A stretch of DNA of 27,891 bases from a virus: the IMG/VR virus record IMGVR_UViG_3300046012_000358, positions 1 to 27,891 of that record. One strand, written 5' to 3'. Both the position numbers and the translations under genes were made by a program. The notes under the pieces were generated by a model. That model searched no databases. It had not been told where the DNA came from and saw only the letters and a program-made list of their open reading frames with translations. This document shows, in pieces, positions 4,430 to 19,264 of this stretch (position 1 is the first letter of the stretch; the number at the start of each line of letters is the position of its first letter).

Positions 4430-4645
4430 TTACTTAGTTTTCTCCAGTTTTTCATTGATGCACTGTACAGTTTGGGTTTTAAAGTCTAGATGTTCAGTGG
4501 TTCGATAATGGTCTAAGGCTTCAAGAGCATTAGTAAATTTACCCCCACATAGACTACATCGCCAAATTCTAGCCCCAAAATTAATTACAAAGTTAGCGTC
4601 TCTAGCAGGTGCGGTTACACTAGCGGCCAATGATTCTTCCTCCAT
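4430..4645 (-). CDS. C2H2 zinc-finger protein between terminase and portal (71 aa)
   Basis: 71 residues with one clear classical finger: C30-x2-C33-x12-H46-x5-H52 in CSLCGGKFTNALEALDHYRTTEH. The phenylalanine four residues after the second cysteine is also typical. The rest is a short acidic, alanine-rich N-terminus and a lysine-rich C-terminus. The ATG overlaps the terminase C-terminus by 26 bases and its stop abuts the portal start, so the gene is embedded in the packaging operon. A nucleic-acid or protein contact in packaging is possible, but this is inference. Similar single-finger proteins occur in phage terminase-portal junctions, function not known to me. Confidence 0.8.
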   Translation of the reverse strand: MEEESLAASVTAPARDANFVINFGARIWRCSLCGGKFTNALEALDHYRTTEHLDFKTQTVQCINEKLEKTK

Positions 4646-6242
4646 AGTTTCTGAAACGGTTAACGCGGCGCCGCTCTAGGTGTTTACGAAAACTGAATTG
4701 AGGTATATCAACTGGTTCGCTAGGTAGTTCAGTAGTTTTAGGTATCAAGCTGTAATACCTAACTGGATCGTACGAATGGTCAGGTACATTCGGATCGCGG
4801 TCATCGCTATAAATTTCTTTACCGTTATCTGTACCAATCTTTTTATACCTAGCTGACTGAATCTGGGTGATGGCATGGGTCACTCCTTCCGGATATTTCT
4901 CGGATCGCTTTAAGAATAACATTGCGGAACTATTCAATCCAGTTATCGGATGTACTATTGCAGGGTCTAAAGCCAACATTTCACCGACTGCATTGCGGCA
5001 AGCCAGTTCGTTATTGTCGGCCGGACGCCACATTATAGGAGGTGCCTTTAAACGAGTATCTAGATATTCATCGGCTGTAGTCCAGTGACCACCGTATTTC
5101 TGCTGATTCTTTTTAAAGATTGCCGGATCGGCATAGTTACCGTGGTATTTTTCATCTTTAGATAATGCCGCTATTGCTTCACGGTGAAAAGAGATTAAAC
5201 GTTCAGGCATGTAGTATTCACGATAACATACGTGGATACCTTTAGAAATTATACCAAAATTACGATTAAGGATTGAAGGAGGGAGATAAGCAAACCACAG
5301 GCATGTAGTTGGAGCGGCATCCCCATGATCCATGACTCTGTATTTAATACCGTCTTTTTTAATTACTTCTAGGATCTTTTGAAACTCTTCCTCACTAACC
5401 CCTAAGCTAGAGGTTAGTTTGGGTCGAATGTCTGGAGCGGCTATTTCAAGTACTGACTCCCTATTAAGGTAATGTATGCTTCCACCTGCAACTCCCCACT
5501 TTCCCCAGTAATATCTATCGACCCATTTAGGATCTCTATTACGCATTGCCGCTTTAAGCGACTCAGCAATAGCTGGATTGTCATGGATCGAAGCATGGAA
5601 AAAGGAATGGGTATCTCTGTATTGGTAAGATTCTGTAGAATCAGGATGGAATCTACGGTACCACCAATGTACTGTAGTGTCGGGATTTACCAGCGACATA
5701 TTGTAACAGGGCGGCATGGGTTTACCGCTATAAGGATTCTTAGGGAACATTTCTGGGTTAAGGTGTGATGGAATTTCAGCTTGATCCCATCGCTCTATAC
5801 GTACATCCATGACTAACCAAATACCTTCGGAGATCTCCTCGTCCTGATCGCCTAGACGAGAATTTACCTCTAATCCACGAAGGGTTTCTTCGGAATAATC
5901 ATCGAGATGCATCCAGAAAAGTTCGCTACCGTTAATTAGTCTAAGGTATCCATCTTTGTCATTTCGTCGCCCGCCATAGGCTTCAGAGTACAATTCACGG
6001 GGGCAGACTTTAAAGAATGTAGACATTGTAGAAGTAGATAAATCTTTAGAGGTGTACCTAGTTCCTGCTACACGGTATTTAGGGAAAGTAGTAAGTAGAG
6101 TTAAGGCCTTCATCGAAGCACCTTGGGTTTTACCGTTACCGAATCCACCACTAAACCCTTGATCGCGATGGGTATCGTAATAGAAATCTTCCTGTACTTT
6201 ATTGATGAACGAAATTGGGATTTGGTGGTTAATGTCGGGCAT
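4620..6242 (-). CDS. terL: Terminase large subunit (ATPase and nuclease)
   Basis: DNA-packaging motor that hydrolyses ATP to push DNA through the portal and cuts concatemers. At 540 residues it has the usual two-domain order. The Walker A loop is GGFGNGKT at about residues 32-39. A Walker B-like acidic pair is DE at about 134-135. The RNase H-like nuclease domain shows D305 (YRVMDHGD), D372 (NYADPAIF) and D488/D492 (VPDHSYDPVRYYSL), consistent with three metal-binding acids. It is followed by the finger protein and portal genes. The start ATG at 6242 lies five bases after the end of the tail ORF upstream. Close confidence comes from the ATPase motif and gene order. Confidence 0.9.
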   Translation of the reverse strand: MPDINHQIPISFINKVQEDFYYDTHRDQGFSGGFGNGKTQGASMKALTLLTTFPKYRVAGTRYTSKDLSTSTMSTFFKVCPRELYSEAYGGRRNDKDGYLRLINGSELFWMHLDDYSEETLRGLEVNSRLGDQDEEISEGIWLVMDVRIERWDQAEIPSHLNPEMFPKNPYSGKPMPPCYNMSLVNPDTTVHWWYRRFHPDSTESYQYRDTHSFFHASIHDNPAIAESLKAAMRNRDPKWVDRYYWGKWGVAGGSIHYLNRESVLEIAAPDIRPKLTSSLGVSEEEFQKILEVIKKDGIKYRVMDHGDAAPTTCLWFAYLPPSILNRNFGIISKGIHVCYREYYMPERLISFHREAIAALSKDEKYHGNYADPAIFKKNQQKYGGHWTTADEYLDTRLKAPPIMWRPADNNELACRNAVGEMLALDPAIVHPITGLNSSAMLFLKRSEKYPEGVTHAITQIQSARYKKIGTDNGKEIYSDDRDPNVPDHSYDPVRYYSLIPKTTELPSEPVDIPQFSFRKHLERRRVNRFRNYGGRIIGR

Positions 6243-8078: not shown

Positions 8079-8384
8079 TCAATCTCGATTCTCTATTTCA
8101 CCTTGTTTATTTAGTTCAACTATCATTGGCTCTAACCAGCTAAAGACCACTCTTAGGGTTCGCTTACAGTATATCTGAGCCGCTTCTACCGATTCACCCA
8201 AGGTTAAGGAAGAATCCATAGATAGGATTGTAAAACGTACTGAATTGCTTTTAATGTAAAATAGCGTCCATAGAGTTCTACCCTCGGAGTTATAGGTACC
8301 CGCCTCGCTTCGCTCGGCTGCTATGCCGAATTGTAGCTTAGCTTGTGGGGGTAATCCCGGTTTAGGTTTTACCTCTGTGGGCAT
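8079..8384 (-). CDS. Hypothetical protein (101 aa)
   Basis: 101 residues, not recognised. A proline-rich N-terminus (TEVKPKPGLPPQ) precedes a beta-rich core (TLWTLFYIKSNSVRFTIL) and a helical end (ESVEAAQIYCKRTLRVVFSWLEPMIVEL). The segment coding AERSEAG contains a GC-rich hairpin built on GCGAAGC. It overlaps the upstream gene by 16 bases, with no clear SD of its own, so translation is probably coupled. Context suggests a virion or packaging role without detail. Confidence 0.65.
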   Translation of the reverse strand: MPTEVKPKPGLPPQAKLQFGIAAERSEAGTYNSEGRTLWTLFYIKSNSVRFTILSMDSSLTLGESVEAAQIYCKRTLRVVFSWLEPMIVELNKQGEIENRD

Positions 8385-8692
8385 AACATCGTATTGACCC
8401 TAGCACCGTCGCCTTGAATCACGATCTGGAAGGATGGCGCGGCACGCTGGATATCGTCTGGGGTTAAAAGACCTTGAACTTGTATCATTAATTTAGAGAT
8501 TTGAAGTTTAATAGATTTCTCGTCATCTTCGCAAGCGTCGTAGAGTTCTCGTAAATCCCTAAAAATGTCTGACGGGGAGAATCCCTCCTTCGCCATTAAC
8601 TTGATGTGATCTAATTTCTCAGAGGTTGAATTCTTACTTGGTTCAACCGTTTGGGATATTAGAGACTTGGCCATAACTGAAAAGCCGCTCAT
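8369..8692 (-). CDS. Hypothetical protein, possible small terminase candidate (107 aa)
   Basis: 107 residues. The middle is helical and acidic (KLDHIKLMAKEGFSPSDIFRDLRELYDACEDDEKSIKLQISKLM), like a helix-turn-helix followed by a helical hairpin. The end is a beta strand-like SFQIVIQGDGARVN. Small terminase subunits have a DNA-binding helical head and a helical oligomerisation hairpin, so this is the best candidate in the window for that role, but evidence is weak. I chose the ATG at 8690-8692, which overlaps the upstream stop as TAATG and has GGGAGG 12 bases upstream. A longer form from 8734 would overlap the upstream gene by 43 bases and lacks an SD. Confidence 0.6.
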   Translation of the reverse strand: MSGFSVMAKSLISQTVEPSKNSTSEKLDHIKLMAKEGFSPSDIFRDLRELYDACEDDEKSIKLQISKLMIQVQGLLTPDDIQRAAPSFQIVIQGDGARVNTMLCPQR

Positions 8693-8883
8693 TAGGTGCT
8701 TTGCACCTCCCTTTCCTTTGCCGCTTCGCGGCATTTAGTTTCGTATTTAAAGTTCTCAGTAATGTATGTTCCACTAGGCAGATCGTCTTTAATGTGTTTA
8801 TCTCGGTAGAATTTTAAGACTGCGGTTAAGGGCGAATCCCTTAAACGCTGTTGACCGTACGTTAGTTCCTCATTGTTCTCCAT
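8692..8883 (-). CDS. Hypothetical protein (63 aa)
   Basis: 63 residues, charged, not recognised (MENNEELTYGQQRL...LKFYRDKHIKDDLPSGTYITENFKYETK). No membrane segment; one cysteine. GAGGAAG lies about 9 bases before the ATG. It overlaps the upstream gene by 14 bases and ends in TAATG shared with the next gene. The coding end contains the hairpin CCGCTTCGCGG. Confidence 0.65.
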   Translation of the reverse strand: MENNEELTYGQQRLRDSPLTAVLKFYRDKHIKDDLPSGTYITENFKYETKCREAAKEREVQST

Positions 8884-9323: not shown

Positions 9324-10124
9324 TTACCTCCAAATTTGTTGAAGAACCGGGGTGGATAATGTAATTCCAGGAGCTACCTTAAAAGGTACTGCACAATCCT
9401 CCATACGTATATCGAGGGGACCTTGATTCATGGTTCCAGCATAGCAACCAGTTTCGAAATCCTCTAAAGCTAAACCATAAATACGAGTAGAGTCTCCGGA
9501 TTCAAGGTTAACCCCGGTCGTACCTTTTTTACCTTTGCCGCATCCGAAGGCAAAACCACCGAAGTAGTTAACTCCGTTTACCTGCGCTCGGATTGACAAC
9601 GGAGCATCTCCGGATACATGACTGATTGCATCTATAAATGATCCACTAATTTGCAGGTTGAATACATTAATGTTACATGCCCATGTAGCAAACAAATCGT
9701 TACCGGTTAAAGCTCCTGCACTGATTTGGAATGCCTTTTGGCGCGGGGTCGAGAGACCGTTAGGGTTAAAGATACGAATGTTTTTAACTGAAGTAAACCA
9801 AGTTTGGACTAACTGTAAACCGATTAAATCGTGGTTATTAGTTTGGGTAAGATCGAATGCTATATCACTGATGCCGCCTCGGTACGTAGGGTTAAGTCCC
9901 TTAGAGCTTTGACCGATTTTAACTACAGCGTCACCTACGAAGTTTGGAGCGGCGATTAAGATAGTGCCGCCTTCTCCTTGTAGGTGAACATCAGGGTTAG
10001 TCCATGTAAGGGGTTTGGAGATTGTGTATTCGCCCCTAGGTAGTCTTATGGTATCTCCTATTTTAGCCGCTGTATTAATTACGTCTTGTATGTCAAATGT
10101 GTCATCTACGGCGCCGTTTTGCAT
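9324..10124 (-). CDS. Beta-helix tail spike or fibre protein (pectate-lyase-like fold)
   Basis: 266 residues. The N-terminus has DDTFDIQDVINTAAKIGDTIRLPRGEYTISKPL, the pattern that opens pectate_lyase_3-type right-handed beta-helices (D-T-x-I-Q-x-A..G-x-x-I-x-L-P-x-G-x-Y). It is followed by coils such as VHLQGEGGTILIA, VKNIRIFNPNG, INVFNLQISGSF and TRIYGLALEDF. Such proteins are receptor-binding or polysaccharide-degrading parts of phage tails. It is short for a complete tailspike, so it may be a head-bound or adaptor-type copy. No catalytic acids can be assigned by eye. I chose ATG at 10122-10124 with AAAAAGGAA upstream; a GTG at 10163 would put the SD inside the gene. It is the first gene of the minus-strand module. 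Confidence 0.75.
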   Translation of the reverse strand: MQNGAVDDTFDIQDVINTAAKIGDTIRLPRGEYTISKPLTWTNPDVHLQGEGGTILIAAPNFVGDAVVKIGQSSKGLNPTYRGGISDIAFDLTQTNNHDLIGLQLVQTWFTSVKNIRIFNPNGLSTPRQKAFQISAGALTGNDLFATWACNINVFNLQISGSFIDAISHVSGDAPLSIRAQVNGVNYFGGFAFGCGKGKKGTTGVNLESGDSTRIYGLALEDFETGCYAGTMNQGPLDIRMEDCAVPFKVAPGITLSTPVLQQIWR

Positions 10125-10608
10125 TGCGTGGTTCCTTTTTGTCGACGGTTGTTTCTTGAGCACGAAGTGCTACTTTAAAAATTCAAAAAAGCTTTAGCGC
10201 TTCGCGCTTTTAGCTCGAAAACCACTAAATCATTTTTGCATTTTTAAAATTTTTTGGAAACTTGAAATTGGTTTTATTTTTTAAAGGTGGGTGTGGGGTA
10301 ATATGGGCTGCGCCCATATGCGAAGGCCCGTACTATAAGTACTAGTACTATTGGGGGAGTACCGGTGGTACTTACGTACCATTAGGTATAGTACTAAAGT
10401 ACTTTAGTTTACAAAGTACTAGCGCTAGCACTAGCGCTAACTACGATGCTGCATCGTATGGTACTGAAGTACTTGAAAGCGTAAAGCGGCTTTAGGGTAC
10501 AAAGTTGTGGATTAAATTGTGGATATCTAAATCAGCGGGTACAGAGCGATGCCGCTTCAGGTACAATGGATTCAAGGTAGTAAACATTAAACATTAAAGG
10601 ATAAACGC
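10125..10608. other. Divergent intergenic control region
   Basis: 484 bases without a convincing gene, lying between the divergently read virion module and two small plus-strand genes. The left part (10180-10290) is AT-rich with runs of A and T and two small hairpins: AGCAC-GAA-GTGCT at 10159-10171 and AGCGC-TTC-GCGCT near 10197. The right part holds the palindrome array described separately. TACAAT at 10562-10567 could be a -10 box for the plus genes, but I see no good -35. No clear promoter for the minus operon can be picked by eye, so it may use a phage-specific or activator-dependent one. Confidence 0.7.
10301..10475. repeat. Dense array of GTAC-centred palindromes
   Basis: Perfect or near-perfect inverted repeats follow one another. 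They are ATATGGGC-TGC-GCCCATAT (10301-10319), AGTACTAGTACT (10338-10349), AGTACC-GGT-GGTACT (10358-10372), TGGTAC-TTAC-GTACCA (10366-10381), ACTAAAGTACTTTAGT (10393-10408), TAGCGCTAG-CA-CTAGCGCTA (10420-10439), TACGATGC-T-GCATCGTA (10442-10458) and AAGTACTT (10467-10474). AGTACT alone occurs six times in about 140 bases, and GTAC about a dozen times in 180 bases where fewer than one is expected. Spacing is irregular and the palindromes differ, so it is not a CRISPR array. It may be a replication origin, a set of operators, or a recombination site. Confidence 0.85.
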
Positions 10609-10755
10609 ATGGAAGCGACAATCATATCAATCGGCATCACAGTGACTACGACCTTGTTCGTGTTGCAGGTCGTAGTTCGTGAGGGCGCAAAACTCATTTT
10701 CTCGATCACCCTACAGGTCGAAAAATACCGTGCTCACAGACAGGGGAAAGCGTAA
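10609..10755 (+). CDS. Small hydrophobic protein (48 aa)
   Basis: 48 residues starting MEATIISIGITVTTTLFVLQVVV, a hydrophobic stretch long enough for one membrane helix, followed by a basic, polar C-terminus (EKYRAHRQGKA). A small membrane peptide is likely; function is unknown. AAAGGA lies 7 bases before the ATG. The stop overlaps the next start as TAATG. The gene contains a perfect 10-bp inverted repeat (10645-10676). It is the first gene read rightward from the palindrome array. Confidence 0.7.
   Translation: MEATIISIGITVTTTLFVLQVVVREGAKLIFSITLQVEKYRAHRQGKA
10645..10676. repeat. 10-bp inverted repeat inside the small membrane gene
   Basis: ACTACGACCT at 10645-10654 and AGGTCGTAGT at 10667-10676 are exact reverse complements separated by 12 bases. 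In the mRNA this could form a hairpin starting 36 bases after the start codon. It might slow ribosomes or bind a regulator. There is no T-run, so it is not an intrinsic terminator. Confidence 0.7.
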
Positions 10756-10955
10756 TGCTTAACCCGGTTGAGATAGTTAATATGCGTACCATGTACGCAA
10801 TCGAAGACACTCCGCTGCAACGAGTATACTGTGCTCTTGTCATGCGCCGCGTTATGGAATATCTCTTAATCCCACACCAGCACGCTTATCATCATGCGGC
10901 TGGTACTACGATTCCCGAAACACTCGAAAGCCTTGCACTGGAATTAGGGTTTTAA
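10755..10955 (+). CDS. Hypothetical protein (66 aa)
   Basis: 66 residues, helical, not recognised (MLNPVEIVNMRTMYAIEDTPLQRVYCALVMRRVMEYLLIP then a His-rich HQHAYHHAAG). The histidine cluster could bind metal, but no complete motif is present. Its start overlaps the stop of the 48-residue gene (TAATG), giving a two-gene unit that ends at the terminator at 10977-11010. Confidence 0.7.
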   Translation: MLNPVEIVNMRTMYAIEDTPLQRVYCALVMRRVMEYLLIPHQHAYHHAAGTTIPETLESLALELGF

Positions 10956-11063: not shown

Positions 11064-11609
11064 TTAGAGATCTTCGGCCGAGAAATCACCGAGGGCCTTA
11101 GCCGTATCGAGGATCTTCAGTGCGCCGGGTTTCTTTGCGATGAAACCAGCCTTCCACTTATCGACGCATTCCTTAGCCGTCAATTCCATGAAAGCCTGAT
11201 TCGACTTCATAACCTGAACGATCTTGGCCTTGAGTTCCGAAGTGAGGTATTCACCGGTCGAAAGTGCCGCCGCTTTACCGTTCTGGTAGGAATCCTGAGT
11301 CGCGCGATAAAGCAGCGCCTCGAGCTGAGTGGTTTTGTCCGCAACCAGATTCTGAACTGCGGTAAAAAGCCCCGCCAGAAACTGGTTTTCAGTCCCAAAC
11401 TTCGGGTCATAAGACGGCAAAGTGTATTTCTCATACTTCAGTTCAATGGGAAAATCGTCCACGCCAGTTGCGAGATCGGTAACTTTCTGGGTTTGAGTGA
11501 TTTTCTGAATCTGGATTGTGGGGTTTTCGACGGGCGTTCCGCCGCCACCAGCCCCCACTTCACCGTTAGTTTTCGCCATCAAAACTTCATTTCTGTTAAA
11601 CGACTTCAT
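11064..11609 (-). CDS. Unknown protein of a stand-alone, probably highly expressed unit (181 aa)
   Basis: 181 residues, not recognised. A Gly-rich linker (GEVGAGGGGTPVENP) near the N-terminus is followed by a polar region (QIQKITQTQKVTDL), a short beta-like part (ELKYEKYTLPSYDPKF) and a helical domain (NQFLAGLFTAVQNLVADKTTQLEALLYRATQ... SELKAKIVQVMKSNQAFMELTAKECVDKW). Codon choice is GC-richer and more regular than in most neighbours. It has its own sigma70-type promoter (11672-11700), a leader with two hairpins, AAGGA 9 bases before the ATG, and a strong terminator, and it faces the opposite way from both flanking plus-strand sets. A second ATG 11 codons in (MAKTNG) is possible but lacks an SD. 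This looks like an independently expressed accessory gene. Confidence 0.8.
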   Translation of the reverse strand: MKSFNRNEVLMAKTNGEVGAGGGGTPVENPTIQIQKITQTQKVTDLATGVDDFPIELKYEKYTLPSYDPKFGTENQFLAGLFTAVQNLVADKTTQLEALLYRATQDSYQNGKAAALSTGEYLTSELKAKIVQVMKSNQAFMELTAKECVDKWKAGFIAKKPGALKILDTAKALGDFSAEDL

Positions 11610-11700: not shown

Positions 11701-12010
11701 GAGAAATCGTACATTTTTTAGCTTTTTATTTTGCTTCGCCCGATCGCCTGAGGGCTTCGCACTTTTGAGGGCTTTTTTATGGGCTTTTTTGCTTTAACCT
11801 TAAATCCTAAAACCTTAAATCGATTTAAGTTAAACTCATTAATACAGTTTTTACGTCTAAGTCCTTTGTTTTCAACATTTTGCACTCACGTTGATTCTAA
11901 AGGGCTTACGATTCCTCCGAAAAGCTATCCCCGACAGGTCCTAACAAGTGTAGTTTGAGGGTTAAGTTCTTTGTTTTCAATGACTTAGAGTCATGTATAG
12001 GGGTTAAGGG

Positions 12011-18325: not shown

Positions 18326-18620
18326 CGTAACTGAAGAAGATATCAAGCATGGCAAACCTAGAATTTGTAGCGATTGCCCTGTAGCTCTAGCAATACTTCG
18401 GGCAATTTGTACAGCAGCCCCCAGTGATAGCGATTTCTACGCGATAAAGGTAACATCTCATTGCTGTTTCATGTGGCTCGACCCTAGTCAAGATAGGATT
18501 CACACATTACTTCCGTATGAGGCAATAAACTTTATAGACAAACTTGATCGTACAATGTTAGTTAAACCCTTCACGTTTGACTTAAAGATCCCTGATGAGT
18601 TCACCAATCAAAAAACCTAG
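18309..18620 (+). CDS. Conserved small phage protein with CPVALAI motif (103 aa)
   Basis: 103 residues. MILTINVTEEDIKHGKPRICSDCPVALAILRA, followed later by INFIDKLDRTMLVKPFTFDL, matches a small protein seen in many phages (I-x-V-T-x-E-x-I-x-x-G....C-P-x-A-L-A, then F-I-x-x-x-D-x-G-x-x-V-x-P-F-x-F). Its role is not known to me. I chose ATG at 18309 with AGGAGAAAG just before it; a start at 18261 would add a Lys/Arg-rich stretch that merely reads the previous gene out of frame. Confidence 0.72.
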   Translation: MILTINVTEEDIKHGKPRICSDCPVALAILRAICTAAPSDSDFYAIKVTSHCCFMWLDPSQDRIHTLLPYEAINFIDKLDRTMLVKPFTFDLKIPDEFTNQKT

Positions 18621-18807
18621 AGAACGTAAACCTCCTGCCGCGTTACCCGTTGAATTGTTCCTAACGCGGCAGGAACAGTATGTATTCTACAAAATGTGTT
18701 CAAAGTACAATCTAAGCCCTAACGCAATGCTTAAAAGCATCGTTTTAAATAGCCTCAACAACGAGGTAACGATAATTACGGAGCCACTAATTAAACTTAA
18801 TGATTGA
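18595..18807 (+). CDS. Ribbon-helix-helix-like protein, possible regulator (70 aa)
   Basis: 70 residues. A basic, proline-rich N-terminus (KKPRERKPPAALP) is followed by VELFLTRQEQYVFYKMCSKYNLSPNAMLKSIVLNSLNN, the strand-helix-turn-helix layout of Arc/MetJ-type (ribbon-helix-helix) DNA-binding proteins. Such proteins bind inverted repeats as dimers. The gene itself contains a perfect 13-bp inverted repeat 38 bases after the start codon (18633-18674), which could be an operator or an mRNA hairpin. It overlaps the previous gene by 26 bases. The fold call is by pattern only. Confidence 0.65.
   Translation: MSSPIKKPRERKPPAALPVELFLTRQEQYVFYKMCSKYNLSPNAMLKSIVLNSLNNEVTIITEPLIKLND
18633..18674. repeat. 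13-bp perfect inverted repeat in the RHH-like gene
   Basis: TCCTGCCGCGTTA (18633-18645) and TAACGCGGCAGGA (18662-18674) are exact reverse complements with a 16-base spacer. It is GC-rich and lies inside a coding region, where such a pair is not expected. It is not followed by a T-run. It may be a binding site for the encoded protein or a hairpin that controls translation. Confidence 0.8.
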
Positions 18808-19264
18808 GCTCAGCCCAATGGATTTTAACCGATTTCACGCTAAATTTTTAAGATACTCAGATGAATCTATTTGCTGGCCTTGGCAGGGAAAACCTAGACC
18901 GGACGGATACGGTGAATTTACGTATAATTACATAGATGGGAAACATAGAACCATTAAGTTAGCTCATATTGTAGCGTATGCTCTGCATTATAAAACTGAG
19001 ATTAACCAATTCGTACTGCACAAATGTGACAACCCCATTTGTGTAAATCCGCACCATTTATTTTTAGGGGATCAAGCAGCCAATATGCAAGACAAGCAGT
19101 TTAAAGGCAGGGAAAAGCGCTCAAGTTTTTCGGCTAAACTAGTTTCTCAAATAGAGGATGAAATAAAAGCTGGAAAAACACATAGACAAATCGCCCATGA
19201 ATACATGATTAGTCAAGCTACTGTGTCATTTATACGAAATGGCAAAGTCAGATGCAAGAAATAA
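18800..19264 (+). CDS. HNH homing-type endonuclease with C-terminal HTH
   Basis: 154 residues. CWPWQG (25-30), GYGEF, KLAHIVAYALH, then VLHKCDNPICVNPHHLFLGD (72-91) and NMQDKQFKGR form the HNH_3 pattern of free-standing phage homing endonucleases; H74, C76, C81, N83 and H85-H86 are the active-site and zinc region. The C-terminal stretch AKLVSQIEDEIKAGKTHRQIAHEYMISQATVSFIRNG is a helix-turn-helix that would bind DNA. Such genes are usually selfish elements that cut DNA lacking them. It overlaps genes on both sides by a few bases, so it is well embedded rather than a recent crude insertion. Confidence 0.88.
   Translation: MIELSPMDFNRFHAKFLRYSDESICWPWQGKPRPDGYGEFTYNYIDGKHRTIKLAHIVAYALHYKTEINQFVLHKCDNPICVNPHHLFLGDQAANMQDKQFKGREKRSSFSAKLVSQIEDEIKAGKTHRQIAHEYMISQATVSFIRNGKVRCKK

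Follow-up and report, generated by a model that had tools for sequence, protein, structure and literature searches.

Between positions 10301 and 10475 of a 27,891-base IMG/VR virus record (the whole stretch analysed here, referred to as the window), inverted repeats mostly centred on GTAC are crowded together, which raises the question of what this region does for the phage that carries it. A sequence-only reading had counted eight inverted repeats of 8-20 bases, six AGTACT and about a dozen GTAC, and our recount bore this out. All eight repeats were located (10301-10319, 10338-10349, 10358-10372, 10366-10381, 10393-10408, 10420-10439, 10442-10458 and 10461-10474) and a ninth lies at 10482-10494, so that the array spans 10301-10494. 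AGTACT occurs at 10338, 10344, 10390, 10398, 10415 and 10468, and GTAC was found 11 times in 10301-10475, or 12 times in the best 175-bp window, against the 0.6 per 175 bp expected from shuffles (95.2 per 27,891 bp). The density is local: the whole window holds 117 GTAC, and the approximately 103 outside the array are near expectation. In 300 first-order Markov versions of the whole 27,891-base window, the densest 175 bp never exceeded 6 GTAC (12 observed), whereas the 7 centres of 8-bp palindromes observed were matched in 3 of the 300, indicating that, of the two signals, the GTAC excess (0/300) is by far the stronger.

The array, whose elements are given without strand, contains the hairpin ATATGGGC-TGC-GCCCATAT (10301-10319), the left flank of the core described below, GTACTATAAGTACTAGTACTA (10330-10350), with the palindrome AGTACTAGTACT at 10338-10349, the GTAC palindromes to the right, AGTACCGGTGGTACT, TGGTACTTACGTACCA and ACTAAAGTACTTTAGT (10358-10408), and the further palindromes TAGCGCTAGCACTAGCGCTA, TACGATGCTGCATCGTA and GTACTGAAGTACTT (10420-10474). 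Spacing of the GTAC units is mixed (6-17 bp, 8-9 being commonest). The units, initially read as not being copies of one unit, are nevertheless related in part: 10386-10404 and 10456-10474 share 89% identity over 19 nt, and there are further partial repeats. The array spacer is devoid of any ORF of at least 60 aa; a coding array with a 9-bp period was considered and rejected, because stops break the core frame in relatives and the spacings in the window are not multiples of 3.

On its left, the array is bordered by a minus-strand late gene (9324-10163) and, on its right, by small plus-strand ORFs (10604-10955), one of which encodes, by our own reading, 49 aa. The late genes to the left, all on the minus strand, comprise a tail-like protein, a TerS-like protein of 121 aa (8369-8734), the terminase large subunit (TerL; 4620-6242, phrog_2, 6.9e-13), the portal and the start of the major capsid gene. 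To the right, a minus-strand gene for a 181-aa protein (11064-11609) is followed by plus-strand early genes for a SNF2-type helicase, a Cas4-like exonuclease, a Sak4-like protein and PolA. A location between divergent modules, as initially proposed, is correct only locally: the minus strand is resumed by the gene at 11064-11609, and the main late/early divergence falls at about 11.6-12.4 kb. Farther downstream, 18800-19264 probably encodes an HNH homing-type endonuclease.

The initial interpretation as an evolved cis-acting phage site (origin, operators, or packaging or recombination site) fits in its general terms but had overlooked the most constrained part of the site, a single-copy, non-palindromic core inside the array, TTGGGGGAGTACCGGT (10351-10366, plus strand). 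Its family form, TTKGGGGAnnACCnGT, is syntenic in about 24 relatives, gathered by a TerL search plus a core-pattern search, and its GGGG, CC and GT carry 1.4-1.8 bits per position. TerL identity among these relatives, or to the window, is about 38-59%. In these phages the core and the late genes are on opposite strands, and the core lies upstream of the small TerS-like gene, at a distance of roughly 0.4-1.8 kb. Searching DNA with the core only, without TerL as bait, yielded 4 further phages with an array, all with the group's TerS-like gene; 3 also carry its TerL in the available stretch, and the stretch of the fourth is too short. The other matches of this search were discarded as chance occurrences in coding sequence, as were many core-pattern matches in GC-rich contigs. 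A wider search added two more members, L142 and L148, and four distant ones (L035, L024, L038 and L050) keep only TTTGGGGGAGT, inside inverted repeats in the same interval. We conclude that the array is real and that it sits on a short DNA site which recurs, in the same position, in about two dozen related phages, all uncultivated; it is therefore probably a working control site, most likely the starting point of DNA packaging or copying.

The sequences around the core are organised asymmetrically, one side being AT-rich and the other usually bearing short palindromes or repeats. In the window, the AT-rich flank faces the late genes (10170-10290, no strand) and ranks among the 3% least stable 190-bp blocks (family median, 4%). 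The core flanks are often inverted repeats, and flanks taken from one phage are more complementary than flanks combined from different phages (p about 0.0004); this hairpin is absent in L099, L107, L111 and L113. The nearest relative, L002/L009 (54% identity to the window in TerL and 48% in the helicase), has no GTAC array at the homologous place, yet shares TTTGGGGGA--ACCGGTGGT-CT with the window. Its hairpin at 6081-6101 of L002, ATGAGTCCC-TGC-GGGACTCAT, has the TGC loop of 10301-10319 on a different stem. L012 carries a second, inverted core-like sequence, TTTTGGGGAGTAGCGTT, which faces the core from about 200 bp away (4482-4505, minus strand; 4686-4709, plus strand).

Neither of the two outcomes that would have counted against the initial reading was seen: GTAC is not dense in the rest of the window, and about half of the relatives have a significant palindrome array at the same place, often with core flanks that are self-complementary. 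GTAC itself is not conserved. The side away from the late genes held more 6-bp palindromes than 95% of the phage's own sequence in 13 of 25 phages, and no significant palindrome excess was seen beside the core in the remaining 12. GTACTA is the commonest or leading 6-mer in the window and in L014, L015, L020, L031, L043, L084, L011, L028, L099 and L107; elsewhere the word is TAGCTA (L111), AACGTTAA (L018 and L021), CTAGAC (L027), a TGATAATGA repeat (L017, L053 and L060), of the TTAATTAA type (L142) or CTTAAG (L148). L084 has 7 GTAC units exactly 9 bp apart, the first being the core's own (+8, 17, 26, 35, 44, 53 and 62), and in L011 and L014, where the units begin at or close to the core, the spacing is mostly in multiples of 9 bp. 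The GTAC or non-GTAC character did not cluster on the TerL or the TerS-like tree. Both trees required 8 changes, no fewer than with shuffled labels (mean 7.6-7.9), indicating that the palindrome word turns over fast. A fixed core with an exchangeable array, in which the palindromic word (GTAC, AGCT, TTAA, CTAG, CTTAAG and others) is replaced wholesale between relatives, perhaps to suit a dimeric DNA-binding protein that is host-specific or evolves fast, might account for this pattern, although we regard it as rather doubtful. It would amount to a natural experiment, with DNA-binding specificity exchanged while the site is kept.

Two further features were noted around the 181-aa protein gene, whose family is present in 25 loci and, in relatives, sits on the same side of the core as the array, and whose product, modelled as a beta-hairpin plus long helices, gave no structural or sequence match. 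In L008, L018, L027, L031, L043, L007, L028 and L099, the spacer upstream of this gene, on the array side, repeatedly holds the most AT-rich and least stable stretch of the locus, at a distance of about 1.2-1.35 kb from the core; this stretch may be the divergent promoter region or an origin. A second shared motif, CCCTTTAGAATCAAC / TCCTTTGTTTTCAAC, clusters in the spacer that separates the 181-aa gene from the early genes, at 11862-11876 (plus), 11890-11904 (minus) and 11967-11981 (plus) in the window and as 4 exact copies in L002; over the whole window its count is not above chance (6 versus 3.6 expected).

Perfect stems are enriched 5.6x at the site and one-mismatch stems 2.6x, and near-palindromes showed no wobble excess, with G-T at 1.6x (15 versus 9.6 expected), A-C at 2.5x and other mismatches at about 2.4-3.6x, so that pairing with RNA-like covariation was not supported. 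Nothing in Rfam scored above chance (best, 19.7 bits; cut-off, 100). Taken together, these results favour a symmetric double-stranded DNA site over RNA. An alternative, a noncoding RNA whose structure is more stable on the late strand, would agree with the folding of the 60 bases on either side of the core in some phages (z down to -5.5 on that strand) and with the G-U pairs that, by our reading, close the late-strand hairpin in L031, L032 and L043. Given the lack of an overall wobble excess and of an Rfam match, the four phages without a hairpin and the wide variation in stem sequence and shape, we consider an RNA very improbable.

As to the role of such a DNA site, our best guess, a tentative one drawn from sequence comparison, is pac-like packaging initiation. 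It is favoured over other roles by location: in the order core, TerS-like gene, TerL, portal and capsid, the core occupies the same position as the pac sites of P1, P22 and SPP1. The composite cis-acting site would consist of the conserved core of about 16 bp, usually within an inverted repeat, the AT-rich flank on the late-gene side and, opposite, the palindrome or repeat array, a putative protein-binding site offering binding units for a dimeric protein. Phage packaging proteins would gather on the array, the large terminase would make the first cut in concatemeric DNA at or near the core, and heads would then be filled by headful. The constancy of the place and strand of the core in the approximately 24 relatives, its single copy and its proximity to the start of the packaging genes argue for this reading. 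So do the contigs, in part: they run through the core in every record examined, the nearest contig end lies 0.45-19 kb from it in 8 contigs of at least 40 kb, and the two ends of the 42.6-kb L084 contig overlap by 120 bp, closing it into a circle, which is compatible with circular permutation. Such crossing, together with one genome circle, argues against a fixed cos end and fits either a pac site or an origin; a cos site with fixed genome ends was rejected because contigs continue across the core and end at varied distances. On the other side, the TerS-like protein, a candidate small terminase encoded between the core and TerL and with a family in 48 loci, had no sequence match among terminases, and no solved fold matched its structure model (pLDDT 71). 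About half of the relatives lack a palindrome excess, and the array type is unlinked to the TerS-like and TerL trees, though a slowly changing TerS reading the array predicts such a link. An origin would be equally consistent with the tandem units and the AT-rich flank. Because the TerS-like protein is not tied to terminases and its tree leaves the array type unaccounted for, packaging is held to a tentative grade, and a replication origin, still a doubtful one, is nearly as likely.

At such an origin the AT-rich flank would serve as unwinding element, the core as loading or priming site and the array as iterons for a phage or host initiator. This would suit the low stability of the flank (median, within the least stable 4% of blocks), the tandem units of about 9 bp that start at or close to the core in L084, L011 and L014, and the PolA and DUF3987 primase-helicase encoded by these phages, but the site lies in the late rather than the replication module, no initiator gene was recognised, and many relatives have a stronger AT minimum with conserved repeats 1.2-1.35 kb off. 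Moreover, the turning point of the cumulative GC skew in G001 is about 2.5 kb from the site, although the skew follows gene strand and is therefore confounded. Less probable still is a cluster of operators or a leader for late transcription, at which a dimeric regulator would coat the palindromes downstream of the 181-aa gene and switch the lysis/structural operon. The site does precede lysis and structural genes, as lambda late promoters do, and tandem palindromes spaced at 8-9 bp are well suited to cooperative binding by dimers, such as that of ribbon-helix-helix proteins on the 7-bp repeats of pSM19035 parS (PMC9499535). However, promoters are not in excess (3 found versus 2.9 expected), the core and the next late gene are separated by anything from about 60 to 270 bp, the principal region of divergent promoters is apparently at 11.6-12.4 kb, and RHH_1 (PF01402) had no match in the window, where 18595-18807 looks RHH-like by eye but without a Pfam match. 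Finally, only the core might be functional, the palindromes accruing by template switching or slippage in a tolerant, largely neutral spacer. Words that turn over faster than any gene without tracking phylogeny, and the 12 of 25 phages without significant excess, would agree with this. Nevertheless, many distant members have GTACTA as their most frequent word, beginning with the GTAC of the core itself, and the enrichment of perfect over one-mismatch stems (5.6x versus 2.6x) speaks against it, so that we judge a neutral array distinctly unlikely.

The relatives come from metagenomes and form an unclassified group with complete genomes of about 40-48 kb, which encode PolA and a DUF3987 primase(-helicase) whose counterpart in Pseudomonas phages 119X and PaMx41 is 22-23% identical. 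Isolates yielded no close relative: a DNA search of isolated phages was empty and TerL identity reached at most 27%. The core is absent from the intergenic region of 119X/PaMx41, the isolate matched by the primase at 22.8%. The spacer upstream of the annotated small terminase of PaMx41 (L115, 1870-2249) has CTAATCCTGG-like repeats and G-runs, again without the core, and is perhaps an analogous arrangement. Literature searches returned no description of such a site. The site provides a recognisable cis-element for an unclassified group of soil and environmental phages, usable to find members and to map the start of packaging or replication.

Among known systems, lambda cos resembles this site in lying near the start of a packaging/structural operon, but here contigs traverse the core, at least one genome is circular and there is no sign of fixed ends. 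Iteron origins (lambda ori, plasmid iterons) likewise combine short repeats in an array with a neighbouring AT-rich stretch and a conserved core; their repeats usually exceed the present ones in length (about 17-22 bp), whereas the present units are palindromes of about 8-9 bp without a cognate initiator found. RHH arrays (pSM19035 parS heptads, MetJ met boxes) also consist of short tandem units spaced 7-9 bp, but the pSM19035 heptads are non-palindromic and placed at promoters (PMC9499535), unlike the palindromic units described here, and no RHH_1 protein was detected in the window. The pac site of P1 measures 161 bp and has 7 mostly palindromic hexamers (TGATCA/G) around the cut site (PMC10028697). 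It lies inside pacA and repeats a single invariant word, with a Dam site, to either side of the cut, whereas the present site is intergenic, its word varies among relatives and its cut is a predicted one. Nevertheless, the two have in common a length of about 160 bp, several mostly palindromic 6-bp units, a cleavage region (putative here) and a place near the small-terminase gene (PMC10028697), for which the TerS-like gene is our candidate.
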